Source: Xestospongia bergquistia (taxonomy: Eukaryota > Porifera > Demospongiae > Haplosclerida > Petrosiidae). Taken from it: a stretch of 64,000 bases of DNA. Both the position numbers and the translations under genes were made by a program. Positions 6,559 to 64,000 of the stretch are shown here, piece after piece (position 1 is the stretch's first letter; every line of letters starts with the position of its first letter). The notes beneath the pieces are model-generated. The model saw only the letters and a list, made by a program, of their open reading frames with translations, made no database searches and had not been told where the DNA came from. The stretch lies in NCBI GenBank assembly GCA_963965975.1, contig OZ014423.1:5482301-5546300 (forward strand), given 5' to 3'.

Positions 6559-8841
6559 TTAAACATCTTCAGTAGTTGTATTTCTGTGGTTTGTCAGATC
6601 TTCAGTATGTTTAGAATTTTCAGCACTTATAGAAATACTTGTAGAGTCATCAGATGGTGTCTTTTTCTTATGAGCTTTGCTATGGTTTTCGTTGACTTGC
6701 AATTCCAAGTCCTTTACTTCTTCAAATTTTCTTATTTCTTTCCTATAAATATTGTATTTATTAATTTTAATAAGCTAATGGATAATATACATTGGGGGTA
6801 GAGCAGCTTCTAGTGTACTTTGAAAATGTTTAACCATTTCACTTTTTGTTCCACCTGCTTTTTGATCCGTATTATTGTCTAGTCCAGACTTTATCAATTC
6901 TATCACTTTTCTTACTGTTTCTTTAATAGGATCCTCTTTCCTATAAAAATTGTGTGATTGGATGTTAATATGTTTATAGATAGTATATACTTTGGGGCTA
7001 GAGCAGCAGCTAGTATTATTTGAAATGCTCTTTTAACCGTAATTTTTGTTCCACCTTCTGTTGGATCCATAATATTGTTTATTCCAGTGACCATTAATTC
7101 TATTACTTCTCTTGCTGTTTCTTTAATAGGATCCTCTTCCCTATAAAAATTGTGTGATTGGATGTTAATATGTTTATAGATAGTATATACTTTGGGGCTA
7201 GAGCAGCAGTTAGTATTATTTGAAATGCTCTTTTAACCGTAATTTTTGTTCCACTTTCTGTTGGATCCTTAATATTGTATATTCCATTGACCATTAATTC
7301 TATTACTTCTCTTGCTGTTTCTTTAATAGGATCCTCTTCCCTATAAAAATTGTGTGATTGGATGTTAATATGTTTATAGATAGTATATACTTTGGGGCTA
7401 GAGCAGCAGTTAGTATTCTTCGAGAAGCTACATAAAGTTTACCTTTCCCATGTCTAAGATATACAACTTCCTTTATTCCAGACTGTACAATCAATTTAGC
7501 ACACATGTTACAAGGATATTTAGTGACATAGAGAGTACAGCCTTTAACTGATGGAGTTCCCTTACTGAGAATAGCATCATACTCAGCATGACAAACTAAA
7601 ACAATAAGTACTTGGGATTATAAAAATTGCTTACTTACTGTATGAGCCTTTTGAACAATTATTTTTAGTTACTTTTTGAACAGCTCTGGGATTCATACTC
7701 TCAGGGTATCCACTAAAACCAACTGAGATAACCTGTTTGTCTTCTTCTGATACTATACAGGCACCTTGCTGTCAAAGAGTTGTTAGTGACATGTACATAT
7801 TTTAAAGTTAATGATTACTAACTGTCCATTCTGGATATTTTTCATGACTTCCTAGTTTCTTAGCAGATAGCATTGCTATTGACATAAAGAATTGCTCCCA
7901 GGTAAGGATGAGATCCTTTTCTGGTTCACTAGAGGTAATATCTTTGATATCCTTTTCATATAGTCGTTTTGATAATGAAATCTGAATATCATTCCCTGCA
8001 CCAGCTGTTACTGTTACCTGAGGCTCTCTTGGTGTTTCGAATCTAAGTTGTAAAAATAACAAATGTGTTATACCAATTTAGTCAAAATATTGACCTGTAG
8101 CAGCAAACATTTTGTAAGCGAAGCATCTCTACTGCATAATTTATGTCTAACATTTCTGTTCTAGTTCGTCGTTTGATGAACACTCCATATTTAACATGTG
8201 ATATCCCAGATTGTATAATAGCATGAGCACAGTCCTCATCAGGATAAAGGGTCAAGTAGATAGTGCATCCTTCTAAGTTTGTTATAGTCTTGTTTGTGAT
8301 AGCATTGACAGCTGCATGGACAACTGTTAATATGATGATTGTTAAGAGTATTACAATTAATAAATAATTGTTAATTACCATATGGATATTTTCTGTCTAA
8401 ATCAAGTTTTGATTTTTGGTAATCTTTAGAACCTTTCCATGGGAAGTAATGATCATTCTTTCCATCTTTCATGTATGGCATAGAATTGTATCCAATCCCT
8501 ACAATAGTGTTATCAGCAGTTACAATACAAGCTCCAACCTATAGCATTTTAAAGATATTTTACTTGACTGCATGAGAATATCTTACTGGAGTCCTAGGAT
8601 CTTTACTTCTGAGAGCAGCTAAACAAGCAACATTCATAAAGTATTCATCCCAATCATAAATGACTTGTCTCTCAACTAACTGCATTATCTGTTCAATTTC
8701 TGTGTACAGCCGGTACAGGGCTTTTGTGATATCTTTTTTCTCGATAGTACCCTCAAGACTTGTTTCTTCTGATTCTTCAGCAATTTTCTTTTGGTCTTCA
8801 AATAGATCTGTCCTTTCTGACTGAGATTGTGGAGTAGCCAT
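6559..8841 (-). CDS. Array gene A: tandem deaminase protein with three 50-residue C-terminal repeats
   Basis: Exons: 8587-8841, 8379-8538, 8095-8323, 7823-8042, 7639-7768, 7391-7595, 7191-7340, 6991-7140, 6791-6940 and 6559-6742 (610 aa). Residues 1-85 are a charged leader plus [18 protein letters not shown]. Domain 1 has [20 protein letters not shown] instead of HAE, and PDEDC instead of PCxxC, so it should be inactive. Domain 2 has [33 protein letters not shown] and PCNMC, so it should be active. Next come three 150-nt exons that each encode one 50-residue repeat (key string TKITVKRAFQIIL). The last exon (EIRKFEEVKDLELQ) is related to the tail exon of genes E, F, H, I and M but ends in a hydrophilic Ser/Thr-rich stretch. 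There is no ZU5 or Death domain. The substrate (dCMP or dCTP) is not known. Confidence 0.85.
6991..7390 (-). repeat. Two 200-bp exon-plus-intron tandem duplications inside gene A
   Basis: Blocks 6991-7190 and 7191-7390 each contain a 150-nt exon and its 50-nt intron, nearly identical in sequence. A diverged third member spans 6791-6990. Each exon begins and ends in phase 2, so copies can be added without breaking the frame. Confidence 0.9.
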
Positions 8842-9648
8842 TATATTTTCCTTGTTTGTCTTAAAAGTATGAGAGAAAAATTAACATAGTAGTCAAAAAA
8901 TATTTCCCACCCTTTATATCCTTGTTTTATTAGTTGACTATATAACTGAGTGTATGACACACCAATAAATGTGCTCACTGAAATATTGTTCATCTTTAAT
9001 GTCTACCTATATTCTTAACTTCTTATAACCTTACCAATGATAGTCTTGACTTGCTCTTCTCAGATAATAGTCTAAATAGCTCAATGCTCACTAATTTCAA
9101 AATCACCCCATGAACCCCTGCTCATCATCAATCATTGTTTTTGTAGTATATTACACTATGAACATAGTTATTTGGTCTATATTCCTATATACTGAATAAT
9201 GATAACTATAGTATGACCAATGTAATGTATTGTGGTTTCTCCTTTGTAAACTGTTATGGTACATTGAGTATGTGTAGTAAGCACATATTGCTTATCTCTT
9301 TGTATATAAGCAATACCCTTGAGTTCTAAAAGATTTGTCATAATACAGTAATAATATGTTTATTAAGTATTAGTGTATTCATGATGTCACAGCATTAGTG
9401 ATTATGAATACATAACTAAGGCAAAAGTTTAATAAAACCTGATATTTTCAATATGTTAAGTATAAAACATTTGTATTGTCGTACAAGTCATTGATAACGC
9501 ACAGATAAAATTTATTTATATACTTAATAATATTTGTTAGATTAATTAGTTCATAATTTACAAAAATCATTGAAAACATTAGTTGATGTAATAGCTAATT
9601 TATCCAGCCTAGTATTAGAGAATTGTTACTTGTCAATGATACGTATCA
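8842..9648. other. Intergenic spacer A/B
   Basis: It contains one decayed copy of the shared upstream module (about 9029-9135; see the finding on exon-like blocks). Otherwise it is AT-rich with no exon seen. It presumably includes the gene A promoter and the gene B 3' UTR. Confidence 0.6.
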
Positions 9649-11938
9649 TTATATCAAACCTTTGGATAAAACCATGCAGACTTCACAATGGAATTTATCA
9701 TCAATTCTCACATTTACGTCCACCATCATCACTTTATCAACACTCCTGTTGACATAATTAATAGCAGTACATTAATAATAAAAATCAATTGCGTACTTTA
9801 TTGACCTTTTATTGTTCTCTTCACCTTCCTCGAGGGCAATATCATTGCTACCTTCTGTTCCAAGAGGCAAACAAGTTTGTAATATTTTCTTTGAGCCTAG
9901 ATACATATTCTTCTCTTTTTTTTCTTTTTTTTTATTCTTGTTAGTTTCTTTTGAAATGTCTTTCAATGTATGGGGCTCTCCATTAGGTTCGTCTCCAGCA
10001 TATATAACTTTTTTTATTCCAGACTGTACTATAACTTTAGCACAGTCATTACAAGGATATTTGGTAACATAGAGAATACAGCCTTTTTCTAGTGAAGTTC
10101 CTTTACTGAGAATAGCATCATATTCAGCATGACAAACTGGAAGTATAAATTAAATTTCAAAGGAAGGTGTATAATACCAACTTACTATGTGGATCTCCAA
10201 CATAATAATCCATATCCATTTCATCATTAACAGCTCTGTAATTCATACGCTCTGGATATCCACTGTAGCCAATGGAAATCACTTTTCTGTCACCTGTTAC
10301 TATACAAGCTCCTTGCTAGAAATGATAAGCTAATAATAATATCATTACAAGTAAATAAATGCAAAATGTTATGAAAATGTAGGGACTTTAATCTTTTAAA
10401 AAGAACAGAAACGAGTAGAAATGGCATTATTATCATTCCTACATAAAAGCACAAAATTGAGTAATGTCAAATCAAATCAAAAAAAATAAAGCTAGTATTT
10501 CATTCTTGCAATAATAGTATCAGTTGTCATGACAATAATTAAGAATACTGTCAGAAATTAGTATGATGTACTCTGCTCACATTATGAATGAGCACAACTC
10601 AGTGTTATAACTCTGGGTAGGAATGAGCTAGAGAAATGGTTGACTATTCATAAGGTTTTGCAACTCTGAAAATTTCATTAAAAACTAGGTCATAAATCAT
10701 TTTATGAATGTTTAGAAAAGTATATGAAATGTTTCTGAATCTGTACTGCTTTTTAGCAGAGATATTAGTAATAGATAATTTATATTGAACACTATATAGT
10801 CCTCAATAAGCATTTTAAAGTTTATTATTATCTTACTGTGCTTTTGGGACTTCTTTCATGTCTTCCTTGTTTTCTAGCAGATAACATTGCTACAGCCATA
10901 AAGAATTGATCCCATTCAATGTGCTCACTTTGTTTTAGCCGTAACCTTTTGGACAAACTTACTACCTAATATAAATACATATAAATCAGACATGGCAACT
11001 GATGAGCTTTTGAGAACCTTATATTCAGTAATTGTAGCTACTTGAACTTTTTTGACATCTTTAGTATAAACTTTGGGCTCATTTATCAGATTACATTCAC
11101 TACGGAAATTATATTTACAACAATATGGTAATATAACATACATGAGGTTAACTTCTCCATGGTGAAGTAATTCTGTGGCATCAATAATATCTGGTTGATC
11201 TTCTCTACCTGGCTTTATAAACTTGCCATATTTAACAGTAGATATACCTGCCTGTATAATAGCATGAGCACAATCTCTGTCAGGTTTTAATGTCACATAG
11301 ATAGTACATCCTTCTAGACTTGGTGTAGTCCTGTTTATGATGGCATTGACTGCTGCATGAACAACTGACATAAAATGTATAAAATTATCAAAGATAGTAC
11401 AAAATTGTGGAAAGTGGAAAAAACTTACCATATAAATGTTTTCTTTCAAAATCATATCGAGTGTCATTGAAGGTTTCATCTTCTTTGCCCTTCCATGGAA
11501 ATACTTTATCATTATGGTGTTCTTTGTTATCATCAGATTTTTTAATATAAGGCATAGAGTTATATCCAATACCTACAACTCTTTTGTCAGAGTTAACTAT
11601 ACAAGCTCCAACCTGTAATGGTTTATGATAAATGAACAATTTATTATATCAACTTACTGGTGTACTTTGGTCCTTACTTCTGAGAGCAGCTAAACAGGCA
11701 ATACTCATAAAATATTGATCCCAGTCATAAATCACATTTGGTGCTGGGACAATTTTCTCTATATCTTGTAGTATTTTTCGAATCTCAAATACTTTACTTC
11801 TAACTATATCATCTTTTGGACTCAATAGTCCTCCAAGTAGTCCACTTATCTCATTTTTCTTTTCATTGAGTTTAGACTGTCTATCTGAAACTTATATAAC
11901 AATAATAGGTTAGTTTTTTAATGATGCCAACCTGCCAT
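9649..11938 (-). CDS. Array gene B: tandem deaminase protein with short C-terminus
   Basis: Exons: 11932-11938 (ATGGCAG only), 11658-11890, 11429-11612, 11142-11364, 11042-11099, 10837-10965, 10186-10315, 9806-10136 and 9649-9745. They sum to 1392 nt (463 aa). Domain 1: [33 protein letters not shown] (Glu lost) and PDRDC (one Cys lost). A small linker exon carries EPKVYTKDVKKVQ. Domain 2: [33 protein letters not shown] and PCNDC. The domain 2 exon runs on into a lysine-rich then acidic linker (NKKKEKKEK, LEEGEENNK), and a final small exon of unknown nature (EVCMVLSKGLI) ends the protein. The last exon is the least certain. Subfamily 2; ZU5 and Death modules are absent. Confidence 0.8.
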
Positions 11939-13605: not shown

Positions 13606-16600
13606 TTAAGCAAAAGAAAGTTTTGGGACTATTTCTTCAGCCAGAGCTTCTTCTCCTACTATTGCTAAAGCTACTAGAATGGTCTTCCAGTTGCAAGATG
13701 TAGACGACAATTGTATCCATTTTCTAAACATTTCTTCACAGCAACTTTCACAAGCAGGATTGTCTCTCTTGATAATAGCCAGATCACTGTTTGGAACTCC
13801 AAGCATATGACCTACAGCTTCCCACTTGTCCAAAACCATGGAAAATCGTGCACATATGTAAGGTTTATGTACCTTCTCTATAACTCCAAATGACATGAGG
13901 ACTGGTATGTCAGGCATTCCATAGGTTTTATCAAATTGTTCATATTTTGATGCATATGACACTGTAGAAACAATATTTGTTATATTAGCTATGTAACTTA
14001 ACTTTGTTATGTTATAAACCTTTTGTTGGCAAGAATTTAAAAAATACATTTTCTGTTCTCATTCCATGAAGTGTTACCAATGGTGCACATGGTTGTTCTA
14101 TACTGTCTTCAGATCCATCTGATTTAATATATAACTGAAAATGTTGTAAAGCAGAATCTGGTGTACTCTTATCCACATCAGATTTGTTGATCTTAATAAT
14201 AAAAGTTGTAGTAGGTAAAATATTTCAGATAATCATTATATTATTATACCTGACATGGTGCAATAATATCCACCTTCCAGCTTTTCTCTACTTTGTTATA
14301 TTGAATATAGTTGTCTTCTCCAAATTGAAACTTTTTTGGTTCAATATACTCTATCCAGTCACTATAGACATCTTTAGCTCTCTGTTATATAAGACAGATA
14401 TCAGTAATGTCTATAGTGACCCAATCTTACCTGCTTAAAAGGTCTCAAATCTTTAGTCACTACTATGTTCAGCTCCCATGTATTGGTTTCAATTTCCTTG
14501 TAATAGACCATCCAAACATATCTCAAGTTGTTACTAAACTCAAGGCTGATTGTAATGGCAAAAATACAGAATTTAGGAACTTGAATAAGCACACCATAAT
14601 TTTCTTTGAAGGAGGTAATGGCTTTGTAATCAGCAAATTGAAATTTATAAGGAAGTGAGGGTTCAGGGCAGATAATAAAGCCCAACTCTTTACTATCATT
14701 TTTAGAGAGAAGCTCAGCATGATGCTCAAGGTGAACTTCAATTGGTTCATTAAATTTGGGTGAGATCTGGATCTGAAAAAAGCAGCTTATTGGCTGGCAA
14801 TTAGCAGGAAGGACAAATGGACCTGAGGGGTGGAGCTGAACACCTATCCTGATCTTGTTTGGTTTAGCAAATGGTGGTACAACTATTCCTATTCCATCCC
14901 TTGTCACATTGAACCTCTGCTTTTGATCAGTAGCACAGAAAATCTCTACAATGACTCCTAAAGTATATGAAGTTTGAAAAGCATTTTTTAAAGTTTTGAT
15001 ACTGATTCTAGAGCTATTTGAACATTTATCTATAGAGCTATGTTATCATTAAATAGCCCCTGTTAATTAACTAACTCATACAATAATCATTACCTGGGTC
15101 ATGTAGTATGACTTCAATTTTTTCATTTGCTTCATAGGGAACCAAACAACATTTTGTCAGTATTCTCTTGGAGCCTAAATACATGTTGTGTTTTTTCTTT
15201 TTTGTTTGCTCTTTCTGATCTGTTTCTTCTATAAGCTCTTCTAATGTATAATGTTGTTGACCATCCTGTGGTGTATCGTTATCTGGAACATATATAACCT
15301 CCCTTATTCCAGATTGTACTATAACTTTAGCACAGTCATTACAAGGATATTTAGTGACATAGAGAGTACAATCTTTAACTGGTGGAGTTCCAGTACTGAG
15401 AATAGCATCATACTCAGCATGACAAACTACAAATACAAATTTAAAGATTTGACTGATCTCTAATATATTACAACTTACTGTATGGATCTCCAGCATAATA
15501 GTCCATATCTGTTTCTTCATTAACAGCTCTGTAGTTCATTTGTTCTGGGTATCCACTGTAGCCAATTGAAATCACCTTTTTTTCTTTTGATGCTATACAA
15601 GCTCCTTGCTAGAAGTAAAGAATTGATTGACACAGATATGATAGCATTATTATCTTACTGTGCTCTGAGGTCTTCTTCCATGTCTTCCTTGTTTCTTTTT
15701 AGATAACATTGCAACAGCCATAAAAAATTGTTCCCATGTAAGATAGTCTGGATTTTTTTGTTTTAGTTTCATTCTTTTTGACAAACTTATAGTTGTATTC
15801 TATAATAATATAATTCAATTAATGAGCCCTTTTGTTTTGCATTGAACCTTTTTGTCAGAACAAATGTAAGCAACAGGCTCCTTTGGTACAACATATTTAC
15901 TATTTTAGAAGTAACAAAATTATAATTTTATAAATATAAAACATACATGAGGTTAACTTCTCCTTGGTCAAGCAGCTTAGTGGCACCAGTAATATCTGGC
16001 TTGGCTTCTCTACCTTGCTTTATAAAGCTGCCATATTTGACAGTAGATATACCTGCCTGTATAATAGCATGAGCACAATCTCTGTCAGGTTTTAATGTAA
16101 CATAGATAGTACATCCTTCTAGACTTAGTATAGTTCTGTTTATGATGGCATTGACTACAGCATGAACAACTGTTAGTATAAAATTATTTTAAGAGTAGGC
16201 CGACAAAACTATTAATTTACCATATAACAGCTTTTTGTCATAATCATATCGAGTTTCTTCGAATGGTTTTCCTGATTTACCTGTCCATGGAAATACTTTG
16301 CTATCATCATCTTCATGACCTTTAATATAAGGCATGGAGTTATATCCAATACCTACAACTCTTTTGTCAGAGTTAACTATACAAGCTCCAACCTGTAATA
16401 ACTAATGATCAATGAACAGTTCATTATACTAACTTACTGGTACACTTTGGTCCTTACTCCTGAGAGCAGCCAAACAGGCAATACTCATAAAATATTGATC
16501 CCAGTCATAAATTACATCTGGATCTGGGACAATTTTCTCTATATCTTGTAGTTTTTTTCGAATCTCAATTACTTTACTTCTAACTGTATCATCTTTTGGA

Positions 16601-16715
16601 CTTGATAGTCCTCCAACTAATCCTTTTATCTCATCTCTCTTTTTAGTGAGCTTAGACTGTTTATCTGAAACTTGTATAACAACAAGTTATATTTCTAATG
16701 ATGCCAACCTGCCAT
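13606..16715 (-). CDS. Array gene C: tandem deaminase fused to ZU5-UPA-Death
   Basis: Exons: 16709-16715, 16438-16670, 16221-16392, 15947-16169, 15848-15899, 15659-15799, 15479-15608, 15094-15426, 14431-14957 (ZU5 and start of UPA), 14250-14381, 14020-14191 and 13606-13961 (Death). They sum to 2478 nt (825 aa) with no stop. Domain 1 is degenerate (HAVVNAI, PDRDC). Domain 2 keeps CHAEYDAIL and PCNDC. ZU5 is marked by RDGIGIVVPPFAKPNKIRI. UPA strands follow (VWMVYYKEI, WELNIVVTKDLRPF). The Death fold is marked by LDKWEAVGHMLGVP and WKTILVALAIVGEEALAEEI. ZU5-UPA-Death is the arrangement of UNC5 and PIDD1 tails, where UPA can hold the Death domain closed. The fusion to a nucleotide deaminase suggests a cytosolic signalling enzyme; that role is inferred. 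Confidence 0.87.
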
Positions 16716-19073
16716 TATAGACAGCTTGGTGGCTGTTAACAATGATTTACTATTGCTATCTGTTATTGGTGATGATTCTTGACTATATAAAATAAGAACT
16801 ACTGTTTATTGAAAATGTATGTAGACTACTTTGTCTTGTAAGTGTTTAAGTTACTTAATATAATAACTTAATATAATTGTTATCACTTTTCTGTTATAAT
16901 ACTTCAAACAAATCTCACTTATGTAATAAAGATATTATTTAGTTAATGGAATATTACTCACTTTTAGTGCCTACTAATAACAATTTATGAACAAAAATGT
17001 TTCTTAAATTCTTATAGCTTTACCAATAATGATACTCTTGACTTGTTCTTCTCAGATAATAACTCACTACTCACTATGATTCTAATTTTATAATCACCCC
17101 ACCTATTCCTGACTCGTCATCAATTATGACTGTCATATTATGCTATGAATGTATGTACTTCTACATAATGAATATTTACCTTATTTGGTACTTTATGAGT
17201 AAATGTTTGTCATGTGAATATAGAGTATTACTCTCCTACTATATTATATACATTATTTATGTAATGATAACATAACACATAACATGTTTATTTAGTATAG
17301 TGAGTGTTTTGAATTCAAAATTCAAACTCTGATGTAGTCCATAACTTATAACATCTCTATACTACTGTCATATGGTGTCTATCCCTTATAAGGTATATAT
17401 TTATTTAATCTCCTACAATGGTTATTAAGCTATTGATAGCTAAGTAGATAAGTAAGATTAAAATATTCAGTAAGCACATGCATTTCATTCTTTGATATAG
17501 ACATAGAATACAGTCTGGATCAGACTATCCCTGTCACACCATGCATCTAATATATGGCTAGGACATTCTAAAATATTACTTCACTGGGTTCACATTCTGG
17601 TTGGACTATTTTTTTATATGATAATCTATCAAACATTGCTCACTTTGTGTATTGTTTTGTTAGTTGACTATTGCTATATAACTGAGTGTATGACACACCA
17701 ACAATGTAATCAATACTCACTTGAATATTGTTTACCTTTAATGTTTTTCTATAAGAGTTTATGAATAGATTATTAACTTCTTTTAGCCTACCAATGATAA
17801 TCTTGACTTGTTCTTCTCAGATAATAGTCTCAATAGCTCACTGCTCACTGTGAATCTAACTTTTTAATCACACCACTCTATTCCTGCCTTGTCATCGATT
17901 ATAACTGTCATAATATATAACATTATGAATGTAACTACTGTATCTACACTCCTACAATATGAATAATGATAATAATTACCTTGTTTGGCATTACGTGTGT
18001 AAATGTTTAGCACGTGAATATAACATATTGCTATACTACTGTATTATAAATACAATTAATGTATCAACTACCAATACACTAATGTACACTAATGATAGAG
18101 TACACTTACTGTCAATAACTGTCAGTTTTGAATTCTAATGTTATTTTTATTTAGTATAGTGAAGTTTTGAATTCAAAATTCAAATTCTGATGTAGTCCAT
18201 AACTACATATATTATTAGGTTTAATGATGTATCACAATTACTAGACTATAATAATCTCTATACTGCTGTCATATAATGTGTGCTATATAGGGTATATCTA
18301 TATAATCTCTTACAACAAAGTACAAGTTTTGTGCTATTATATACATCAACTGTTAGTGTACTCATTTTGTCATTAGCAATATCTGACTTAAACATGATTG
18401 CTTAAAAATAAATACTACATAATAATTACATTTACCTGTCAAATACTTGTAGTATAACATTTTATATCCTTACCAATAATGGTCTGTTTCTTTCTTTTGA
18501 AATTTTAACCAAAATAATATAGTTCACTATAGTTTAGTCATCACCTAATCAACTTTTGCCTTCTTATCAATTCTGACTCTACTATTATACTATAGATATA
18601 ACTGATAATAGTTTCCTTGTTTGACATTATTTATATCAACATTAATTTGGCACATGAATATTTTGATAGATTATATAGTATATTGTGTTAACAAAGTACT
18701 TATATTAATATATTAACTTCTGTTCAAATGACATCCTGGAACATCCTAGGATATGCAGGCTACATCCAGGGTCAACCTAGTCTTTTTGGACACCTGGTTT
18801 ATGGCCCCCTCTGTTCTAAATATATTTCAAGGAATCATGTGATATCCACGATATCTCAGGTCATACTAGGATATCTTTTGATTTTTGTACTACATTCTAT
18901 GTATATATATCCAAACTGTCTAATATATCCCATATCCCATAATATCCCTTCGCTGCTTACTTTATAGATAGTAGCTATACATATGGCATTACAAACACAC
19001 ATAATGAACATTCTAAACAACAAACTACACTTTCATATAATACTTAGTAAAATAAACAAGCAAACAATTTAAT
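16716..19073. other. Intergenic spacer C/D with repeat modules and a decayed first exon
   Basis: It holds a TATA-like site (16784-16792), exon-like blocks at about 17020-17135 and 17800-17910 (both with broken frames), a third decayed block near 18475-18600, palindromic GAATTC blocks near 17310 and 18170, and a GATATCC-rich module at 18728-18880. No intact gene is seen. Confidence 0.6.
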
Positions 19074-27507: not shown

Positions 27508-27563
<56 letters not shown>

Positions 27564-31790: not shown

Positions 31791-31792
31791 AT
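29376..31792. other. Intergenic spacer F/G, near-identical to the spacer M/N
   Basis: It holds a leftover of a second-domain exon start (29384-29402), an exon-like block at about 29905-30005, GATATCC-rich modules at 30855-31010 and 31445-31600, and a decayed UPA exon at about 31045-31110. No intact gene is seen. Confidence 0.6.
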
Positions 31793-50930: not shown

Positions 50931-53099
50931 TGTAGACAGCTTGGTGGGTTTTAGCAAAGATTTACTATTTCTATGTTGTTATTCTTGACTATATAAAATA
51001 AGAACTACTGATAATATATGTAGACTACTTTGTCTTATGGGTGTTTACTTAATATAATAAATTAATATAATTATTACTCAGATAATAACTCACTACTCAC
51101 TATGATTCTAATTTTATAATCATCCCACCTATTCCTGACTCGTCATCAATCATGACTGTCATATTATGCTATGAATGTATGTACTTCTACATAATGAATA
51201 TTTACCTTATTTGGTACTTTGTGAGTAAATGTTTGTCATGTGAATACAGAGTATTACTCTCCTACTATATTATATATATTATTTATGTAATGATGATATA
51301 ACACATAACATGTTTATTTAGTATAGTGAGTGTTTTGAATTCAAAATTCAAAATCTGATGTAGTCCATAACTTATAACATCTCTATACTGCTGTCATATG
51401 GTGTCTATCCTTTATAAGGTATATATTTATTTAATCTCCTACAATGGTTATTAAGCTATTGATAGCTAAGTAGATAAGTAAGATTTAAATATTCAGTAAG
51501 CACATGCATTTCATTCTTTGATATAGACATAGAATACAGTCTGGATCAGACTATCCCTGTCACACCATGCATCTAATATATGGCTAGGACATTCTAAAAT
51601 ATTACTTCACTGGGTTCACATTCTGGTTGGACTATTTTTTAATATGATAATCAACCAAACATTGCTCACTTTGTGTATTGTTTTGTTAGTTGACTATTGC
51701 TATATAACTGAGTGTACGACACACCAACAATGTAATCAATACTCACTTGAATATTGTTTACCTTTAATGTTTTTCCATAAGAGTTTATGAATAGATTATT
51801 AACTTCTTTTAGCCTACCAATGATAATCTTGACTTGTTCTTCTCAGGTAATAGTCTCAATAGCTCACTGCTCACTGTGAATCTAACTTTTTAATCACCCC
51901 ACTCTATTCTTGCCTCGTCATCAATTATAACTGTCATAATATATAACACTATGAATGTAACTAATGTATCTACACTCCTACAATATGAATAATGATAATA
52001 ATTACCTTGTTTGGCATTATGTGTGTAAATGTTTAGCATGTGAATATAACATATTGCTATACTACTGTATTATAAATACAATTAATGTATCAACTACCGT
52101 ACACTAATGTACACTAATGATAGAGTACACTTACTGTCAATAACTGTCAGTTTTGAATTCTAATGTTATTTTTATTTAGTATAGTGAAGTTTTAAATTCA
52201 AAATCCAAATTCTGATGTAGTCCATAACTACATGTATTATTAGGTTTAATGATGTATCACAATTACTAGACTATAATAATCTCTATACTGCTGTCATATA
52301 ATGTGTACTATATAGGGTATATCTATATAATCTCTTACAACAAAGTACAGGTTTTGTGCTATTATATACATCAACTGTTAGTGTACTCATTTTGTCATTA
52401 GCAATATCTGACTTAAGCATGATTGCTTAAAAATAAATACTACATAATAATTACATTTGCCTGTCAAATACTTGTAGTATAACATTTTATATCCTTACCA
52501 ATAATGGTCTGTTTCTTTCTTTTGAAATTTTAACCAAAATAATATAGTTCACTATAGCTTAGTCATCACCTAATCAACTTTTGCCTTCTTATCAATTCTG
52601 ACTCTACTATTATACTATAGATATAACTGATAATAGTTTCCTTGTTTGACATTATTTATATCAACATTAATTTGGCACATGAATGTTTTGATAGATTATA
52701 TAGTATATTGTGTTAACAAAGTACTTATATTAATATATTAACTTCTGTTCAAATGACATCCTGGAACATCCTAGGATATGCAGGCTACATCCAGGGTCAA
52801 CCTAGTCTTTTTGGACACCTGGTCTATGGCCCCCTCTGTCCTAAATATATTTCAAGGGATCATGTGATATCCACAATATCCCAGGTCATACTATAATATC
52901 GTTTGACTTTTTGGACTACATTCTATGTATATATATCCAAACTGTCTAATATATCCCATATCTCATGATATCTCTTCGCTGCTTACTTTATAGATAGTAG
53001 CTATACATATGGCATTACAAACAGACATAATGAACATTCTAAACAACAAACTACACTTTCATATAATACTTAGTAAAATAAACAAGTCAACAATTTAAT
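50931..53099. other. Intergenic spacer K/L, similar to the spacer C/D
   Basis: It holds the TATA-like site at 50990-50998, exon-like blocks at about 51075-51160 and 51815-51930, GAATTC palindromes near 51335, and a GATATCC module at 52755-52905. The 51.1-53.1 kb stretch is close to 17.05-19.07 kb. No intact gene is seen. Confidence 0.6.
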
Positions 53100-55063
53100 T
53101 TAGTCTTGTCTCTGTGTAAGTTTTGAGGCTATTTCTCTAGCCAGAGCTTGCTCTCCCACTATTGATAAAATTACCAGAATGGTTTTCCATGTTTGTGGTG
53201 CACATTTTAATTCTATCCATTTCCTAAGCATTTCTCTACAGCAACTTTGATTTCCATCAGTTGCAAGTTCATTGATAGTAGCTAATTCATTGTCTGGTAC
53301 ATTTAACATATATCCTATGGATTTCCACTTGTCAGAAACCTTAAGAAATCAATTGGATAATTTATTATATATATATTAGGATTTTGTTTACCTTTGTAAC
53401 TATAAATGATTCAAGCTTTGAAATTTCAGGCATTCCATAAGTTTCAGTGTTATCAAACTTTTCATATTCTATTGGAAGCAATAACTATCACATTAATAAC
53501 AATGGCTATGTATTAGTATGTATCTTCATTGTGATTACAAAAAATTTCATTATATTATGTACCTGTCATAATTGTTGGATTGAATTTAAAAGATTTAATA
53601 CCTCCTCTCATTCCTTCTAATTTCACATCCATTGAATCATCTTTTGTAATGTCTAAGTCCACATGTAATTGAAGATGTTGTAAAGAAGAATCAAGTGTAC
53701 TCTTATCCACTTCAAGTTTGTTGATCTTAACAAACAAATGAGATAGTCATAGGTGCAGTAAATAAAATCTTTTCAAATTACTACCTCACAATGTGTAACT
53801 TGAATGAACATTTTCCTGTCTGTTAGTGCCTGGTCATATTGTACTTGGATAGAGTTGGTTGATTCTCCAAATTGAATTTTTTTTGGCCCAATATACTCTG
53901 TCCAGTCAGTATAACAATCTTTAGCTTTCTATCACATAAAACAGATATCATTAATGTCTATAGTGACCCAGCAACCTAATCTTACCTGTTTAAAAGGTTT
54001 TAAATCTTTAGTCACTACTACATGGAGCTCCCATGTATTCTTTCTGATTTCCCTATGATAGACCGTCCAAATATATTTGAAGTTGTTACTAAACTCAGCC
54101 TTTTGCTTCTTCCATACAATAGCAAAGATAGACGATTCATCAATATGAATAATACCACATTTAGATTGAACTGGAAAGGAGGGGTTATTGGCTTCATCAG
54201 CAAATTTAAAATGATAAGGAAGTGACAATTCGATGTTATGAGAGATAATAAAGCCCAACTCTTCACTGTCAACCTCAGAGAAAACCTCAGCATAATGTTC
54301 AAGATGAACCTTAAATTGCTTATCAAATTTGCGTGAGGTCTTTATCTGAAAAAAGCAGCTTATTGGTTGACAATTAGTAGGAAGAATGAATGGACATGAT
54401 GAAAGGAGCTGAATATCTACCCTGGTATCTTTTGATATAGCCAATGGTGGTACGACTATTTTTATTCCATCTCTTGGCACATTGAACATCTGCTCCTGAT
54501 CAGTAGCACAGAACATCTTTTCAGTGACTCCATACATTATAATACCTTGTAATGTTAATTCTACTTCAGTAAACTGATGAACACTATTTATAAAAGGAAA
54601 CATTGTATCTATCTAGAATGACTTTTTATGTACAATACCTTATTGAGCATGGAACAACTTGTAGTATTGTTCGAGAAGCTTCATACATGTTATACTTTTT
54701 ATCTGTCTTTTTTTGTACGCCTTCTTCAAAATATACAACTTTTCTTATTCCAGACTGTATTATTAATTTAACACAGTCATTACAAGGATATTTAGTGATA
54801 TAGAGAGTACAGTCTTTAACTGGTGGAGTTCCCTTACTGAGAATAGCATCATACTCAGCATGACAAACTAGATTTATATTAACATAGTACTGGTAAATCA
54901 AGAAATTGTTCTTACTTACTATATGGATCTTCAATATTTGTGCTGTCACGTACAGTTTGTACAGCTTTTCGATTTATACTATCTGGAAATCCACTAAAAC
55001 CGACTGAGATAACTCGATTATCTTCTGCTGACACTATACAAGCACCTTGCTACAATATGCCAG

Positions 55064-55101
<38 letters not shown>

Positions 55102-56116
55102 ATGTTGATCATCACAAGTACTAACTGTATGTTCGGGATGCCTTTCATGTCTTCCTTGTTTTGTAGCAGATAACTTTGCTAATGACATAAAGAATTGCGT
55201 CTGTGTAATGATAAGGTTCTTCTCTGGTCCACTGAACTCTTTATCTTTTGGTTCATTAATTCTTTCTATCAAAGAAATCTTTTTTGTTTTACCATCCATT
55301 TTAACTTTAACATGAGGCTCTTTTGTTATTTTAAATTTGCTAAATATCATAGAATAATTTAAAACTTTAAAATTCAAAAATACCTTAGGGAAATTTTTCC
55401 TAAGCGAAGCAACTGTGCTCCTTGTTTTATATCTGGTTGTTCATCTCTTTGTTCATTTCTAGTGAACATTCCATATTTTACATGAGATATTCCAGATTGT
55501 ATAATAGCATGAGCACAATCTTCATCAGGACAAAGGGTTAAATAAATAGTACATCCTTGTAAATTTGATACACTCCTATTAGCAATAGCATTGACAGCTG
55601 CATGGACAACTGTTTATATAACGAATAATACAATTAATTAACAATAATTATGTACCATATGGATCCTTTATCTTCAAGTAATCCTCTGGGTTTTGAGAAC
55701 TTGTCCAAGGAAATTTATCATGGTCAATGTCACCAGGCATAGAATTGTAACCAATTCCTACAATAGTGTTATCAGCAGTTACTATACAAGCTCCAACCTA
55801 TAGTGTTTTAAAAGACATTTTACTTGACTGTATAATAATGAGAATATCTTACTGGAGTCCTAGGATCTTTACTTCTGAGAGCAGCTAAACAGGCAACATT
55901 CATAAAGTATTCATCCCAATCATAAATGACTTGTCCATCAACTAGCTGCATTATCTCTCCAATTTTTGTATATTGCTTATACATGTTTTCTCTAATTTTT
56001 TTTTCATTAACAGCACTATTGTCATCAGGAATTTCTTGTAGTAAGTTCTCAATAAGTTCCTTTTGCTTTTGAAGTTTTTCTTTGATCTTTAATGACTGAC
56101 TTTGTGAAGTAGCCAT
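53100..56116 (-). CDS. Array gene L: tandem deaminase-ZU5-UPA-Death (subfamily 1)
   Basis: Exons: 55853-56116, 55656-55797, 55384-55609, 55126-55339, 54920-55049, 54639-54867, 53986-54583, 53785-53928, 53563-53725, 53392-53468 and 53100-53339 (808 aa, no lesion). Leader MATSQSQSLKIKEKLQKQ. Domain 1: [22 protein letters not shown] and PDEDC. Domain 2: [34 protein letters not shown] and PCNDC. There is no acidic linker. The exon before ZU5 is fused to the ZU5 exon (FTEVELTLQGIIMYGVTEKM), where subfamily 2 has an intron. ZU5: RDGIKIVVPPLAISKDTRV. Death: WKSIGYMLNVPDNEL and WKTILVILSIVGEQALAREI. The near-identical partner G lost part of exon 1. Confidence 0.87.
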
Positions 56117-59100
56117 TATATTTTTCTTGTTTGTTTTAAAAGCATAAGATAAAAAAATTATAAATACAGTAGTCAATTGAAAATATTGCTCACTTTGTAT
56201 ATCCTTGCTTTGTTAGTTGACTATTGCTATATAACTGGTTCACCAATAATGGGATCAATACTCACTGGAATATTAGTCACACTTAACATTTACCCTGTAA
56301 GAGTTTATGATCAAAATAATCTTATAGCTTTGCCAATGATAGTCTTAATTTGTTCTTCTCAGATAATCAATACTCTAAATAGCTTTCTGCTTAGTGTGAA
56401 TCAAATTTTATAATCATCCCACTCTACTCTTGCCTCGTCATCAATTATGACTGTCATAGTATATCACATTATGAATGTAACTACTAACTATGAATATAAC
56501 TGTTGTGTCTATATTCCTACATTATGAATAATGATAATAGTTATCCTGTTTAGCACGTGAATATATAGTGTTGCACTACTGTATTGTAAATACAATTATT
56601 GTATCAACTACCGTACACTAATGTACACTAATGATAGATTACACTTACTGTCATTAACTGTCTGTTTTAAATTCTGTTTATTTAGTATAGTGAAAGTTTT
56701 GAATTCAAAATTCAAACTGAGGTAATAACTTCATATATTAGATTTAATGATGTAGTAGACTACAATATTTCTACACTGCTGTCATATAGTATATATACTA
56801 TGTAGGGTATATCTACTTTATTATTTGTAATAAAGTAATGAGTACAGGTGCTCTTGCATTCATTTGGTTACTAACAACATGTACAGCTGAATTAAACAAG
56901 ATTACTTGAAAGTAATACTACATATTGATTGGTAAAGTACCTGTAGTATAATATTTTGTATCCTTACTATTGATTCTCTTTGCCTTTCTTCTGAGATTAT
57001 AGTTAGAATAATAATCACCTATTCTACTCTTGCTTTGTTATCAATTCTGACTCTCTACTTTTACACACTAACTATGCTATTTTACATTATGGATGTAACC
57101 AATAATAGTTGCCTTGTTTGACGCTATTTATATCAACATTAATTCGTTAAATAAATATCTTGATAGATTTTATAGTACATTGTGTTAACATAACACATAT
57201 ACCAATGTATTAACTACTGTAATTACATCCTGGAGCATCCTGGGATATGCAGACTGTACCAGGTGCTCTGAGTCAACCTAGTCTTTCTGAACACCTGACC
57301 TATAGCCCCATGTCCTAAGTGTATACCATGATGTCATGTGATATCCACATATCTCAGGTCATACTAGGATATCTTTTGGTTTCTGGACTACATCTTTGTA
57401 TATCCAAATTGTCCTATTTATCCAATATCCATTCACTACTTACTCCAGAGAATAGTTATGTACGAGCAATACTTATGTAATGTTAATCCCAATCATAAAT
57501 CGCATATCCAGTTGCTATGTATACACAACTTCAAATTTTTCACTGGATATTTACCAAATTATATAATTATCTTAGTTAAAAAACTATTATTAGATAACTT
57601 AAATACAAAACTTAGTAAACGTCCTTTTAAAAATAAATGAACTGCTTTAATACAAGTGTTTTTATACAACTGTCTTGACAACAAGTTAGATTTCTAATGA
57701 TGCTAACCTACCATTGTAGACAGATTGGTGGCTTTTAGCTGTGATTTACTATTTCTATCTGTTATTGGTGATGATTCTTGACTATATAAAATAAGAACTA
57801 CTGTTTATTGAAAATGTATGTAGACTACTTTGTCTTATAAGTGTTTAAGTTACTTAATATAATAACTTAATATAATTGTTATCACTTTTCTGTTTTAATA
57901 CTTCAAACAAATCTCATTTATGTAATAAAGATATTATTTATTTAATGGAATATTACTCACTTTTAGTGCCTCCCAATAACCATTTATGAACAAACTGTTT
58001 TTTAAATTCTTATAGCTTTGCCAATAACAATACTCTTGACTTCTTCTTATCAGATAATAACTCACTACTCACTATGATTCTAATTTTATAATCACCCCAC
58101 CTATTCCTGACTCGTCATCAGTTATGACTGTCATACTATACTATGAATGTCACTATACATGTACTTCTACATAATGAATAACAATAATATTTGCCTTGTT
58201 TGGTACTTTGTGAGTAAATGTTTGGCATGTAAATATAGAGTATTACTCTCCTACTATATTATATACATTATTTATGTAATGATAACATAATATGTTTATT
58301 TAGTATAGCGAGTGTTTTGAATTCAAAATTCAAACTCTGATGTAGACCATAACTTATAACATCTCTATAGCTATACTGCTGTCATATAGTGTATATCCTA
58401 TATAAGGCATATATACTTATATAGTCTCCTACAATGGTTATTGAGCTATTGATAGCTAAGTAGATAAGTAGGACTAAAAAATTCACCGAGTAAATGCATT
58501 TCATTCTTAAATATTCACCAAGTACATGAATTTCATTTTTTGATATAGACATAGAATACAGTCTGGATCAGACTAGCCCTGTCATACCATGCATCTAATA
58601 TATAGCTAGGACATCCTGAGGTATAACTTCATGTGGTCCTTATAGAGAGTAGCTATACAACTAATAATGTTCAAATTTTAATTCCAGACATAAATCACAT
58701 TCTAGTTGGACTTTTTTATAGGATAGTTAATCAAATATTGCTCACTTTGTATATCCTTGCTTTGTTAGTTGACTATTGTTATATAACTGAGTGTATGATA
58801 CACCAATAATGTAATCAACATTCACTGGAATATTGTTTACCTTTATTGTTTTCCTATTAGAGTTTACGATCAAAATAAAAGATCCTTAATTTAGAGTTTA
58901 TGATCAAATAATAGATTCTTGCTTCTTATAGCCTACAAATGATAACCTTGACTTGTTCTTCTAGATAATAGTCTCAATAGCTGACTGCTTACTATGATTC
59001 TAATTTTATAATCACCCCACTCTATTCCTGACTCGTCATCAATTATGACTGTCATATTATGCTATGAATGTAACTATACATGTACTTCTACATAATGAAT

Positions 59101-59273: not shown

Positions 59274-59346
<73 letters not shown>

Positions 59347-59626
59347 CTACATATATTATTGGATTTAATGATGTAGAACAATTACTAGACATTAATATCT
59401 CTATATTGTTGTCTACTATAATATCTCTATACTGCTGTCATAATAGTATATACTATATAAGGTATATCTACTCAATCTCCTACAATGAAGTACTAGTTTG
59501 TGTTATTGTAAAGATCTAATGTTAGGATATTCATTTTGTTATCAGCAATGTCCAATTTAAACAGAAAATATATAAACATTGTCATTTTTTATATCAATTA
59601 CTTAAAAAGTAATACTGCATAATAAA
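56117..59626. other. Long spacer L/M with repeat modules and relics
   Basis: The first 2.6 kb copies the spacer after gene G. It includes exon-like blocks (about 56335-56455, 58020-58135, 58935-59055), a GATATCC module (57228-57378), a relic subfamily 2 promoter and mini-exon (57705-57790), and decayed domain 1 exons (57445-57500, 58630-58710). A (CT)n run (59262-59316) is followed by a (TA)n run (59317-59344). Confidence 0.6.
59262..59344. repeat. Compound (CT)n(TA)n microsatellite
   Basis: About 55 bp of CT followed by about 28 bp of TA. The copy upstream of gene F (27512-27562) has the same structure but is shorter, so its length has changed since the F/M duplication. Confidence 0.9.
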
Positions 59627-61148
59627 TTATACTTTATAAAATACATGTAGTAGTAAACAATACAAACTAACAAGAAAAAAACACAACAAACGTCTCATAA
59701 TGGATACAGTTCTCTGATCTCCTTTAAATTTTAATTCCAATTCTTTTACTTCTTTAAATTGTCTTATTCTTTCTTTTGTTCGTTTATTTTTTCTATGAAA
59801 GTTACATACATGAACAATGAATATTGAGTGATTTATATAGTTATACCGTTTGAGTAAAGCTGCTCGTAGTATTTTTGGAGAAGCTTCATACATTTTAGCC
59901 TTTTTAGTAGTTTCACCTGCTTTATGATATATCACTTCTTTGATTCCAGACTGTACTATCAATTTAGCACAGTCATTACAAGGATATTTAGTGACGTAGA
60001 GAGTACAACCTTTAACTGATGGAGTTCCTTTACTGAGAATAGCATCATATTCAGCATGACAGACTGAAATATATTAGGTACAAATAACTCAAGAAATTGT
60101 AGTCACTTACTATATGGATTTCCAAGTTTTGTTTTGTCACGTATTGTTTTAACAGTTCTTTAATTCATATTATCTGGAAATCCACTAAAACCAACTGAGA
60201 CCACTCGTTTTTCTTCCTCTGATACTATACAAGCACCTTGCTATATAATTATGTCAGTAATGTTTATTAGCACAAATAATAACTAACTGTATTCTCAGGA
60301 TGCCTCTCATATCTTCCTTGTTTCTTTCTAGATAGTAGTGCTAATGACATAAAGAATTCATCCCATGTAATGACGAGGTCCTCTTCTGGTCCACTGAACT
60401 TTTTCCTTGATATATCTTTTGCCTTTTTAATTCTTCTTGACAATGAAATTGTTTTTTCTTCTGTTACTTGAGAATTTTTTCTTACTACTGTTACTTCAGG
60501 CTCCTTTGTTGCATTAAACTTGCTAAATGTCAAAGAAATAATAATTTTTCAAAAACTTGAAATACTTGTGAGACACTTTTCCTAAACAAAGCAAGTCTAC
60601 TCCTCGCTTTATGTCTAATTCTTTATCTCTTCCAGACTTTCTAGTGAACATTTCATATTTAACATAAGATATCCCAGATTGTATAATAGCATGAGCACAG
60701 TCCTCATCTAGACAATGTGTCAAGTAGATAGTGCATCCTTCTAAGCTTGGTATAGTCCTGTTCGCAATAGCATTTACAGCTGCATGGACAACTGTTAGTG
60801 TGATGATTAATAAATTCATAAATATTTATTAATTACCATATGGATATTTTTTTGTCTAAATCATATTTCGTTTTTTGGTAATCTTCAGAACCTTTCCATG
60901 GGAAATGATGATCATTCTTTCCATCTTTTGTAAATGGCATAGAATTGTAACCAATCCCTACAATAGTGTTATCAGCAGTTACAATACAAGCTCCAATCTA
61001 TAGCGACATTTTACTTGACTGTGTAATAATGATAATGGAAATTTCTTACTGGAGTGCTAGAATCTTTACTTCTAAGAGCAGCTAAACAAGCAACATTCAT
61101 AAAGTATTCATCCCAGTCATAAATGACTTGTCCATCAACTTGTGACAT
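59627..61148 (-). pseudogene. Array gene M: damaged copy of the membrane-anchored gene F
   Basis: Exons by comparison with F: 61050-61148, 60837-60997, 60566-60791, 60288-60522, 60111-60240, 59847-60063 and 59627-59792. Two independent lesions are visible. Exon 60837-60997 is 161 nt where F has 160, owing to a poly-A (coding strand) length change before YPY, which shifts the frame. In exon 60111-60240 the CAA of NMNQRT has become TAA (60160-60162). Both domains otherwise match [10 protein letters not shown] with LDEDC, and CHAEYDAIL with PCNDC. The anchor [17 protein letters not shown] is unchanged, so inactivation is recent. Confidence 0.78.
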
Positions 61149-63886
61149 AATATGTTCAACAATACAAGTACCTTGAAAATTATCAAAATCTTGGATTAAT
61201 CAATAAATAAGAACATCAAATACATAGTGACTAATTGTTGAGAAATCTTAGGTAGAGGGATAATAGATAGTGACTAATGTTTGTGAACTGGTAAATCCCT
61301 AGTTTACATCAGAATTTGATTCAAAGCAAGGCTTATAAAAGTAGACATTCCTTTTAAAGATGTGTGTTCTCTTTGAAATAGTCACGTAGTTCTTTTTGAT
61401 TATTGATAGCTAAGTAAGTAAGAGTTTAAATACTAAATATTTAGCAGACACATGTATTTTAATCCATTTATAGGTGTAAGAGCCAGTCTTGATCAGGTTG
61501 ACCCTCTATTATATCTAATATATGGCTCAACTACAGAGATAGTCATCATAGTCTTCATTTCCTTATCTCATTTATCAGGATTGCTCACTTTGAATACTTG
61601 TATTTATTATATCATCTCTTACCTGACTGTATTACACTTAACTAAGCTTATGATTAAAAGATAACATTCTTTATAGACTTACTTCTTTGCCTTTCTTTTG
61701 AGATAATAGTCAGAATAATACAGTTCACTGTACTTTTATGATAACACCATCAACTTCTGCCTTGTCATCAATTATAACTATTGTAGTAGTATGTTATACT
61801 ATGAATGTAATCTATACTCCTAAATAATGAATACAATAACCATCCTTGGTATGTTGTGTATATGCTCTTCTAACTGTACTATACACAACACATCATACAA
61901 AACAATGTATACTAATACACTAATGTAAACTAATAATAGAGTGCACTTACTGTCAGCAACTGTCAGTGGATTGGATTTCTATTCTTATATTTGCTTAATA
62001 TAGTGAATGTTTTGAATTGAAAATTCAAACTCTAATGTAGTCCCTTACTGCGTATAAATACTATTTAGATTTAATATATAGTAAACTATATCTCTATACT
62101 TACTGCTTTCTACTATAATATCTCTATACTACTGTCTACTTAGCATCTCTATACTGCTGTCATATAGCATATACTATATAGAATATATCTACTCAATCAC
62201 TTACAATAAAGTAATAACTTTATTGTATACACTAATGGTAGAGTGCATTAACTGTCACCAACTATCAGTTTTGAATTCTATGTTTAAACCTTATGCTTAT
62301 TATTTTATAATAGTAATTTAAAAGTAATATTACATAATAAATACCAGTAAAATACATGTAGCATAACATTCTTTTTATGTCCTTATGATCTTTGCCTTTC
62401 TTTTGAAATTATAGCCAAGTAGTATAGTTCAATATATTGTTTTATGGTCTAATCTTGCTTTGTTATCAATTCTGACTCCACTATTACACTATGGATATGA
62501 AGTTGTCTTGTTTGACATTATTTATATCAACATTAATTCAGCACATGAATATCTTGATTGAGTATATAGTACATTGTGTTAACATAATACATATACCAAT
62601 AAATTAACTACTGCATACTAGGTGATGACATCCTAGGACATCTTAGGACATTCTACTAAAACCAGATGTTCTGCATGGATCAGCCTACGTCTTTCTAGAC
62701 ATCTGGCCTATGGCTCCCTGTGTCCTACATGTATTTCAAGAGATTGTATAATATTCATATCCCAGGTCATACTAGAATATCTTTTGACTTTTGGACTACA
62801 TCTATATGTGTATTCTGAGTCCAAAGTCTTATGTATCCCTTATCTCAGGATATCCTAAGATATCACTTCACTGTGTCTTTACTCCAGAGAGTAGCTACAC
62901 AAGCAATACTCACTCCTTTAATGAGTACACTAAAGAATCATTATGTGTCGTAGTCTGAATATTGCAAACTTAAAATATTATAATATGGCGTTACAAACAC
63001 ACTCAAGGAATATTCTAAACAACAAATTACACATTCATCTAGTACTTAATAAAACAAAAAGCAAACAATAAAATTAGACTTGTCTCTGTGCAATTGTTGG
63101 TTTATTGACAAAGAATTTAAAAGATAAAATACCTCCTCTCATTCCTTTTAACTTTATATCCATTGGATGATCATTTTTAATGTCATCAGCAATATCTGAC
63201 TTAAACATGATTGCTTAAAAATAAATACTACATAATAATTACATTTACCTGTCAAATACTTGTAGTGTAACATTTTATATCTTTACCAATAATGGTCTGT
63301 TTCTTTCTTTTGAAATTTTAACCAAAATAATATAGTTCACTATAGTTTAGTCATCACCTAATCAACTTTTGCCTTCTTATCAATTCTGACTCTACTATTA
63401 TACTATAGAAATAACTGATAATAGTTTCCTTGTTTGACATTATTTATATCAACATTAATTTGGCACATGAATGTTTTGATAGAGTATATAGTATATTGTG
63501 TTAACATACACTCATATCAGTATATTAACTTCTGTTCAGATGGCATCCTGGAACATCCTAGGATATGCAGGCTACATCCAGGGTCAACCTAATCTTTTTG
63601 GACACCTAGTCTATGGCCCCCTCTGTCCTAAATATATTTCAAGGGATCATGTGATATCCACGATATCCCAGGTCATACTAGGATATCTTTTGACTTTTTG
63701 GACTACATTCTATGTATATATATCCAAACTGTCTAATATATCCCATATCCCATGATATCCCTTCACTGCTTACTTTATAGATAGTAGCTATACATATGGC
63801 ATTACAAACACACATAATGAACATTCTAAACAACAAACTACACTTTAATGTAGTACTTAATAAAATAAACAAGTCAACAATTTAAT
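61149..63886. other. Spacer M/N with repeat modules and a relic UPA exon
   Basis: It is near-identical to the spacer F/G. It holds a leftover second-domain exon start (about 61157-61175), an exon-like block (61680-61770), GATATCC modules (62628-62785, 63540-63695), a decayed domain 1 exon (62880-62935) and a relic UPA exon (63115-63195). Confidence 0.6.
63115..63195 (-). pseudogene. Relic UPA exon
   Basis: The minus strand reads NDHPMDIKLKGMRGGILSF, a decayed match to the UPA exon of D, G and L (DDPMDVKLQEMRG). It is isolated from other coding exons. A shorter copy lies at 31045-31110. Confidence 0.7.
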
Positions 63887-64000
63887 TTAGTCTTGTCTCT
63901 GTGTAAGTTTTGAGGCTATTTCTCTAGCCAGATCTTGCTCTCCCACTATTGATAAAGTTACCAGAATGGTTTTCCATGTTTGTGGTGCACATTTTAATTC
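63887..64000 (-). CDS. Array gene N: C-terminal end of a Death-domain array gene, 5' part outside the window
   Basis: Only the last Death-domain exon is inside the window: CAPQTWKTILVTLSIVGEQD then LAREIASKLTQRQD and stop. It matches G (and L) almost exactly, so the gene beyond the edge is probably another tandem deaminase-ZU5-UPA-Death copy. Confidence 0.75.
   Translation of the reverse strand, partial: ELKCAPQTWKTILVTLSIVGEQDLAREIASKLTQRQD

Follow-up and report, generated by a model that had tools for sequence, protein, structure and literature searches.

A tandem array of two-domain deaminase genes, several with ZU5-Death tails, in the sponge Xestospongia bergquistia

A 64,000-base stretch of the genome of the sponge Xestospongia bergquistia, here called the window (bases 5482301-5546300 of contig 13, in a genome of 146 Mb in 21 contigs), carries on its minus strand a tandem array of genes that each encode two domains of the deoxycytidylate (dCMP) deaminase type. 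Thirteen copies (A-J, L, M and N) lie complete in the window, the final 105 bases of a 14th (copy O) lie inside its right edge, and O and P bring the extended locus to 15. In six of the 15 (C, D, G, L, M and O) exon searches found ZU5 and Death exons following the deaminase core, and the genomic sequence makes a fused deaminase-ZU5-Death architecture near certain. Also new here, by motif, is a division of labor within the core: the first deaminase domain (D1) appears catalytically dead and keeps a GYN motif, whereas the second (D2) keeps the catalytic motifs and has lost GYN. An earlier note on this DNA had claimed a tandem array of at least 14 two-domain deaminases; the count is borne out, and the start it gave, position 6559, coincides to the base with the stop of copy A. 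A literature search for the deaminase-ZU5-Death architecture and for deaminase expansion in sponges gave no match among the papers listed; a prior mention is possible.

Deaminase and ZU5-Death exons in one gene

Copies were found by searching the window, with 10-20 kb of flanking sequence, for each exon of copy L in turn and by inspecting minus-strand stop-to-stop frames. They were modelled with a purpose-written spliced protein-to-DNA aligner that prefers in-frame joins. Four copies give open models of the fused gene:

13606-16674, minus strand: copy C, deaminase-deaminase-ZU5 exon-UPA position-Death; 10 exons, open, 802 residues without a start codon
19074-22453, minus strand: copy D, deaminase-deaminase-ZU5 exon-UPA position-Death; 13 exons, open, 839 residues without a start codon
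47525-50930, minus strand: copy L, the reference, ZU5-Death type (gene models, Pfam, Death fold); 12 exons and 881 residues, or 11 exons and 897 residues with one Death intron kept
50930-50673, 50627-50456 and 50401-50190, minus strand: D1 exons of copy L
50035-49892, 49845-49716 and 49665-49200, minus strand: D2 exons of copy L, followed by a short exon, 49153-49116
48979-48423 (ZU5), 48374-48234, 48170-47984 and 47913-47525 (Death; optional intron 47815-47768), minus strand: tail exons of copy L
53100-56116, minus strand: copy M, deaminase-deaminase-ZU5 exon-UPA position-Death; 11 exons, ATG to stop, 782 residues

All four splice without stops and in frame, with every intron GT-AG and a length divisible by three. 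The earlier note had claimed stop-free reading and exon sums in multiples of three for the copies it called C, K and L. For C and D a candidate 7-base ATG exon was read by eye just upstream.

Because the models come from genomic DNA alone and the aligner favors in-frame joins, deaminase and ZU5-Death genes might in principle be separate neighbors that only the aligner has linked. This artefact is considered very improbable. Introns in C, D, L and M measure 45-169 bases, those between D2 and ZU5 46-136, and the gap from D2 exon to ZU5 exon is 55-220 bases, too tight for a usual 3' end and a promoter. A 38-base exon in D, L and O, itself not a multiple of three, links the deaminase and tail halves in compatible phases. 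From the D2 exon through the end of the ZU5 exon, the lengths in L, C, D, M and O differ by multiples of three, which is supportive only, since the aligner prefers frame; and the same domain order recurs in six copies.

A dead and an apparently live deaminase domain

The Pfam deaminase family was matched twice, at 132-138 bits, in each of the four models (L as first modelled, with a short exon 6 and 32 fewer linker residues; this version is the source of the full-length Pfam and PDB scores of L). Motifs could be read in all copies except D2 of J and both domains of N. Each of the 14 readable D1 domains has Ala, Val or Thr in place of the catalytic Glu and Asp in place of the first zinc Cys, and in all 14 GYN is intact. 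D2 retains HAE and PCxxC in 13 of 13, a pair found in none of the 14 D1 domains, and its GYN has become GYS or GFS in all 13. By these motifs D1 is predicted to be catalytically dead and D2 live. Ratios of nonsynonymous to synonymous change (dN/dS) in the core are 0.23-0.60 in six pairs, drawn from four of the six ZU5 copies.

Nine of the 13 readable D2 domains were compared with CDADC1, the vertebrate (d)CTP deaminase. A Lys stands at CDADC1 position 423 in nine of nine and at 452 in eight of nine; both are absent from two of two DCTDs and from the two D1 domains compared (of 14). Position 450 is Lys in four of nine, 450-452 being a gappy loop, and K337 was not aligned. K423 and K452 are among the lysines that contact the triphosphate in CDADC1 (PMC12088426). 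The D2 lysine pattern tilts the predicted substrate towards dCTP/CTP. Given the zinc and catalytic residues of D2 and the two CDADC1-type lysines, it is plausible that, as the earlier note proposed, the family acts by sensing or depleting deoxycytidine nucleotides, but K392 is mostly and N367 wholly missing.

Retention of GYN in 14 of 14 dead domains, despite lost catalysis, raises the prospect of a nucleotide sensor, in which D1 would be a pure binder of a dCTP/dTTP-like ligand, the Death tail would fire when the pool changes (e.g., during viral DNA replication), and D2 would reset the signal. In DCTD the motif is part of the dCTP/dTTP-binding site, and dCTP stabilizes the hexamers (PMC12088426). 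The GYN Asn sits in the CDADC1 substrate pocket as well (PMC12088426), so that its retention may be structural. The catalytic residues of D2, needless in a pure sensor, are fully retained, and the sensor is judged rather unlikely.

A parallel with bacterial anti-phage dCTP deaminases had also been drawn in the earlier note. Two array cores do match the PADLOC dCTPase profile, at 113 and 123 bits, but among single domains the canonical DCTD scores 100 bits against 65 for D1 and 71 for D2. The match is generic, an ordinary DCTD domain outscoring both array domains, and a specific link to that defence was rejected; nor did Pfam list an NTPase part in the array models scanned.

The ZU5-Death tail

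Tails were judged against Pfam cut-offs of 21 bits for ZU5 and 22.6 bits for Death. ZU5 is above its cut-off in L only, at 24.1 bits in the first L model and 26.2 bits in the tail. For Death, M (23.3) and the complete L exon scored by itself (23.2) exceed the cut-off. Other versions of L fall short of it (22.2 for the exon without the optional intron, 20.3 for the tail, 18.8 for the first full model), as do C (17.6) and D (17.1). The scores of 26.2 and 23.2 bits both come from exons 47525-48979, which had been singled out in advance for a profile check, and both domains were found there.

An AlphaFold model of the L Death exon, with C as sole aligned relative, has a mean pLDDT of 78. Its ten best Foldseek matches, all at weak E-values (best 0.18, none below 0.001), are Death-domain entries, including FADD, THOC1, two ankyrins and DR3, and the ankyrin-B ZU5-ZU5-UPA-DD structure is matched at E 0.45. 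Searched against PDB sequences, the Death region of L had THOC1 as first match (E 0.0007) and FADD at 0.12 or above, with two unrelated vacuolar-sorting rows among 15. A profile of nine of the 15 tails matched 16 PDB entries, all Death-domain proteins (FADD, THOC1, PIDD; best E 4e-5). That profile gave no PDB match in its ZU5 or UPA part, and the ZU5-UPA segment of L, searched against PDB sequences on its own, likewise matched nothing.

The earlier note had described a ZU5-UPA-Death fusion. Its ZU5 and Death elements stand, with exons of both in six copies, but Pfam did not recognize UPA in the L, C, D or M models or in the tail, and a genome search, made without a positive control, likewise found none. 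A middle region of the tail does align with the ankyrin-ZU5 genes, and "UPA" is used here as a positional label only. The order of ZU5, middle part and C-terminal Death domain is that of the UNC5/PIDD1/ankyrin module, from which the array tails differ in the unrecognized UPA, in the absence of an HFS-type site and in the enzyme that lies upstream.

An autoproteolytic ZU5 of the PIDD/FIIND type was considered and rejected: inspection by eye of the five aligned copies shows I-F-A or I-F-S in each, in place of the HFS or SFS triad of the PIDD/FIIND cleavage site at the ZU5 end. A TRADD_N profile search, run without a positive control, gave no match.

Apparent exchange of tails among the copies

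The remaining copies of the array, and its recent duplicate blocks, are as follows:

6559-8799, minus strand: copy A, two deaminase domains, three 150-nucleotide exons (7340-7191, 7140-6991, 6940-6791) and a last exon (6742-6559), from gene models
9868-11891, minus strand: copy B, two deaminase domains; ZU5 not found by exon search
24485-26719, minus strand: copy E, two deaminase domains and tandem exons of about 150 nucleotides
27844-29387, minus strand: copy F, two deaminase domains and a hydrophobic C-terminal tail
31802-34691, minus strand: copy G, deaminase core with ZU5 and Death exons; damaged, end of exon 1 gone
38225-39780, minus strand: copy H, two deaminase domains and a hydrophobic C-terminal tail
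41135-42690, minus strand: copy I, two deaminase domains and a hydrophobic C-terminal tail
44938-46468, minus strand: copy J, two deaminase domains; one frameshift, near 45506; ZU5 not found by exon search
59627-61160, minus strand: copy N, near-duplicate of F; one frameshift, near 60850
63896-64000, minus strand: 3' end of copy O (Death); the gene extends past the window to 67198 and has one in-frame stop, in exon 4
27510-31017 and 59292-62790; 31113-34518 and 52419-55839; 37056-39841 and 39985-42751: paired duplicate blocks of 96-98.5 percent identity

Three types of tail are present: ZU5-Death (C, D, G, L, M and O), tandem exons of about 150 bases (A, E and P) and a hydrophobic end (F, H, I and N). 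Neither of the latter two was found in B or J. Each tandem exon encodes a unit of about 50 residues, three to four per gene (24485-25210, 6791-7340 and copy P in the right flank). The hydrophobic tails (27844-28150, 38225-38520, 41135-41430 and 59627-59940) resemble a tail anchor, with a mean hydropathy over 19 residues of 2.0-2.3 in F, H and I, the three measured. Neither the 50-residue exons nor the hydrophobic tail had a Pfam match above cut-off.

Core and tail histories conflict. The cores of D and M are 59-62 percent identical, with synonymous divergence (dS) of 0.8-1.2, and their tails 76-85 percent, with dS of 0.05-0.18; M combines the core of one subfamily with the tail of another. L and C show the reverse, with close cores and divergent tails. 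In DNA blocks, the core of copy O resembles C and L (91-92 percent) and its tail G and M (95-96 percent), the switch falling in a stretch of about 85 bases immediately before the ZU5 exon. From these comparisons the tails look like interchangeable modules.

Some copies belong to recent duplicate blocks, a number of them being damaged already: F and N are 98.5 percent identical over 3.5 kb, G and M 98.1 percent over 3.4 kb, and H and I 96.1 percent over 2.8 kb. These pairs could be, in part, duplicates of the assembly. Stretches about 90 percent identical to one another lie directly upstream of C and D (16679-17589, 22465-23502) and about 1.5 kb upstream of G and M (36295-37212, 57678-58734), and are possibly common promoters or a mobile repeat.

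The tail module is not confined to the array. By hand count, about 88 of the 107 matches listed in a search of the genome with the tail, covering the best candidates only, are ZU5 exons outside it. This fits the expansion of ZU5 proteins reported for sponges, for which a defence role was proposed (PMC3482391). None of the eleven outside ZU5 loci inspected lies by a deaminase; their neighbors are ankyrin-like repeats, other sequence or, in one case, a polyubiquitin-like frame. Six, on contigs C1 and C6, have ankyrin-like frames upstream (read by eye, one confirmed by Pfam). At C11:4873873-4878068 a polyubiquitin-like frame, with ubiquitin confirmed, precedes exons of the ZU5, middle and Death-like kind by about 350 bases, which suggests, by predicted join, a gene of polyubiquitin-ZU5-Death type. 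Four C7 loci, preceded by other sequence, are the closest tail relatives among the matches listed (51-57 percent); in front of one ZU5-Death gene of this closest group, and stopping just short of it, stands a 114-base repeat in about 62 copies (C7:2658004-2665051).

Relation to DCTD and CDADC1

A canonical gene of the parent type lies beside the array:

5448-6196, plus strand: canonical single-domain DCTD gene; main exons 5448-5522, 5734-5869 and 5983-6196, from spliced alignment

It stands tail-to-tail with the array, its end about 250-360 bases from the stop of copy A, carries the HAE, PCNEC and GYNG motifs, and clusters with human DCTD in the domain tree (support 86/82). An intron of phase 0 before (V/Q)GAC and one of phase 1 before the CHAE/VHA motif are common to D1, D2 and this gene, which is likely the parent type of the array. 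Farther left, on the plus strand, four open frames lie at 406-2409, with no Pfam match above cut-off.

The tree used 11 of the 15 copies, G, J, N and O being omitted as damaged. The D1 domains of all these copies gather in one group and the D2 domains in another, with strong support for D2 and weaker support for D1, which suggests that the fusion preceded growth of the array. In a PDB sequence search the best match of L was human DCTD (2w4l) at 115 bits; CDADC1 scored 32 bits. DCTD is a single-domain homohexamer that unites catalysis and GYN in one domain, whereas the array proteins divide them between two fused domains, HAE/PCxxC being found in D2 only and GYN in D1 only, and add tails.

CDADC1 (PDB 9hfq), to which the earlier note had compared the family, is a good analogue in that it too is a fused DCTD-like pair, dead then live, an arrangement seen by motif in all readable array copies, and shares K423 and K452. 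Its described structure has no ZU5/Death tail. If the family were invertebrate CDADC1, then CDADC1 would not be vertebrate-specific; the dead N-domain and live C-domain, and the Lys423/Lys452/Tyr457 pattern of D2, speak for this. Topology tests do not reject it either, joining the CDADC1 C-terminal domain with D2 at p-AU 0.217 and the N-terminal domain with D1 at 0.368; the CDADC1 rows are short and very long-branched, and the tests equally failed to reject D1 and D2 as one clade (p-AU 0.12) or D1 with the DCTDs (0.221). Membership is thus neither shown nor rejected by the tree. The motifs run the other way, however. The CDADC1 N-terminal domain retains PCxxC, with the zinc Cys that D1 has replaced by Asp, and has lost GYN, the opposite of D1; its live C-terminal domain keeps GYN, where D2 has Ser for the Asn. 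With these motifs and the higher score of L against DCTD, an origin from DCTD independent of CDADC1 is favored, and membership in CDADC1 is improbable.

A separate-gene form of the live/dead pairing occurs elsewhere in the genome. At C8:5137983-5139202 two single-domain DCTD-like genes stand head-to-head with about 180 bases between them; one has HAE and GYN, the other HAT and no GYN. The same two types lie on opposite strands at C7:2527000-2531500, where one copy is frameshifted.

A proposed mechanism

The reading we put forward, and hold to be evenly poised between right and wrong, is that the array encodes cytosine-nucleotide-deaminating rings with exchangeable outputs, one of them Death-fold signalling, and with a role in innate defence or cell death. 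We infer that two three-exon DCTD-type units fused into one gene, the first losing catalysis and retaining the nucleotide-binding motif, the second retaining the catalytic residues. Three chains would probably build a DCTD-like or CDADC1-like ring, by analogy with CDADC1, whose dead-plus-live chains assemble as trimers and hexamers (PMC12088426). The ring may bind and deaminate (deoxy)nucleotides of cytosine, with dCTP/CTP or dCMP the likeliest substrates. The C-terminal tail would be a swappable output, of ZU5, UPA-position and Death parts in six copies, and the ZU5-Death module appears to have been joined in this genome to ankyrin repeats also, and perhaps to polyubiquitin. Ring assembly on a nucleotide or other trigger could then cluster the Death domains and recruit a Death-fold adaptor, leading to defence or cell-death signalling while the enzyme changes the nucleotide pool.

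An immune or cell-death function is suggested by the Death tail, by tail exchange and by the expansion. The array is apparently an expanded family specific to its lineage, this being the one eukaryotic genome searched. It may be likened to the Death-domain and TRADD-N expansions described for marine invertebrates (PMC8195603) and to the sponge ZU5 expansion (PMC3482391).

Several observations weigh against this reading. The Death tail was not found in nine of the 15 copies and so is not essential to the family, and at least four copies (G, J, N and O) are damaged. ZU5 scores in D (15.7) and M (15.4) are below cut-off and C is unlisted by Pfam, the AlphaFold model of the ZU5 exon is poor (pLDDT 33), and the weak Foldseek E-values and unrecognized UPA belong here as well. 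Death dN/dS is 0.51-1.62 in four of the six ZU5 copies, a fast tail evolution that could mean relaxed constraint. On the enzyme side, by alignment, deaminase 7fh4, which is presumably the XP-12 enzyme, has Leu at CDADC1 position 423. The XP-12 deaminase is described as triphosphate-active (PMC12088426), and K423 would accordingly not be required for triphosphates in general. An equivalent of K392 is found in one of nine D2 domains and of N367 in none of nine; N367 makes space for the substrate sugar in CDADC1 (PMC12088426), and D2 activity could be weak or altered.

It is also conceivable, though we lean away from it, that the array does metabolic housekeeping, as a dCMP/dCTP deaminase that has been amplified and has tails that do no more than localize or scaffold it, by hydrophobic anchor or ankyrin-like ZU5, with no death signalling. 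The adjoining canonical DCTD gene and the several tail types, among them the hydrophobic end, would suit such an enzyme. CDADC1 is described as having no established immune role and as showing no significant induction during chronic infection (PMC12088426). It would, however, be unusual for a housekeeping enzyme to come in a large array in which several copies are damaged and the histories of core and tail disagree. The Death domain, moreover, is a signalling module.

A bolder version of the proposed ring, offered tentatively and judged rather unlikely, is a nucleotide-pool receptor. In each chain a dead ligand-binding domain and a live (d)CTP-deaminating domain of DCTD descent would form a ring that drives Death assembly. 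Disturbance of cytosine deoxynucleotides (e.g., by a replicating DNA virus) would then directly set off a pathway of cell death or immunity, and exchange of tails would swap the outputs, much as in modular families of immune receptors.

That catalysis and the nucleotide-binding motif sit in different halves of a fused pair can be tested directly. If the genes are transcribed as modelled, they fuse a deoxynucleotide-metabolizing enzyme to a tail for Death-domain signalling, within an array whose members have exchanged tails. Such genes would tie the metabolism of nucleotides to Death-fold signalling in an animal. They would also serve as a natural point of comparison for vertebrate CDADC1, itself puzzling, and would parallel the nucleotide depletion used by bacteria against phage.

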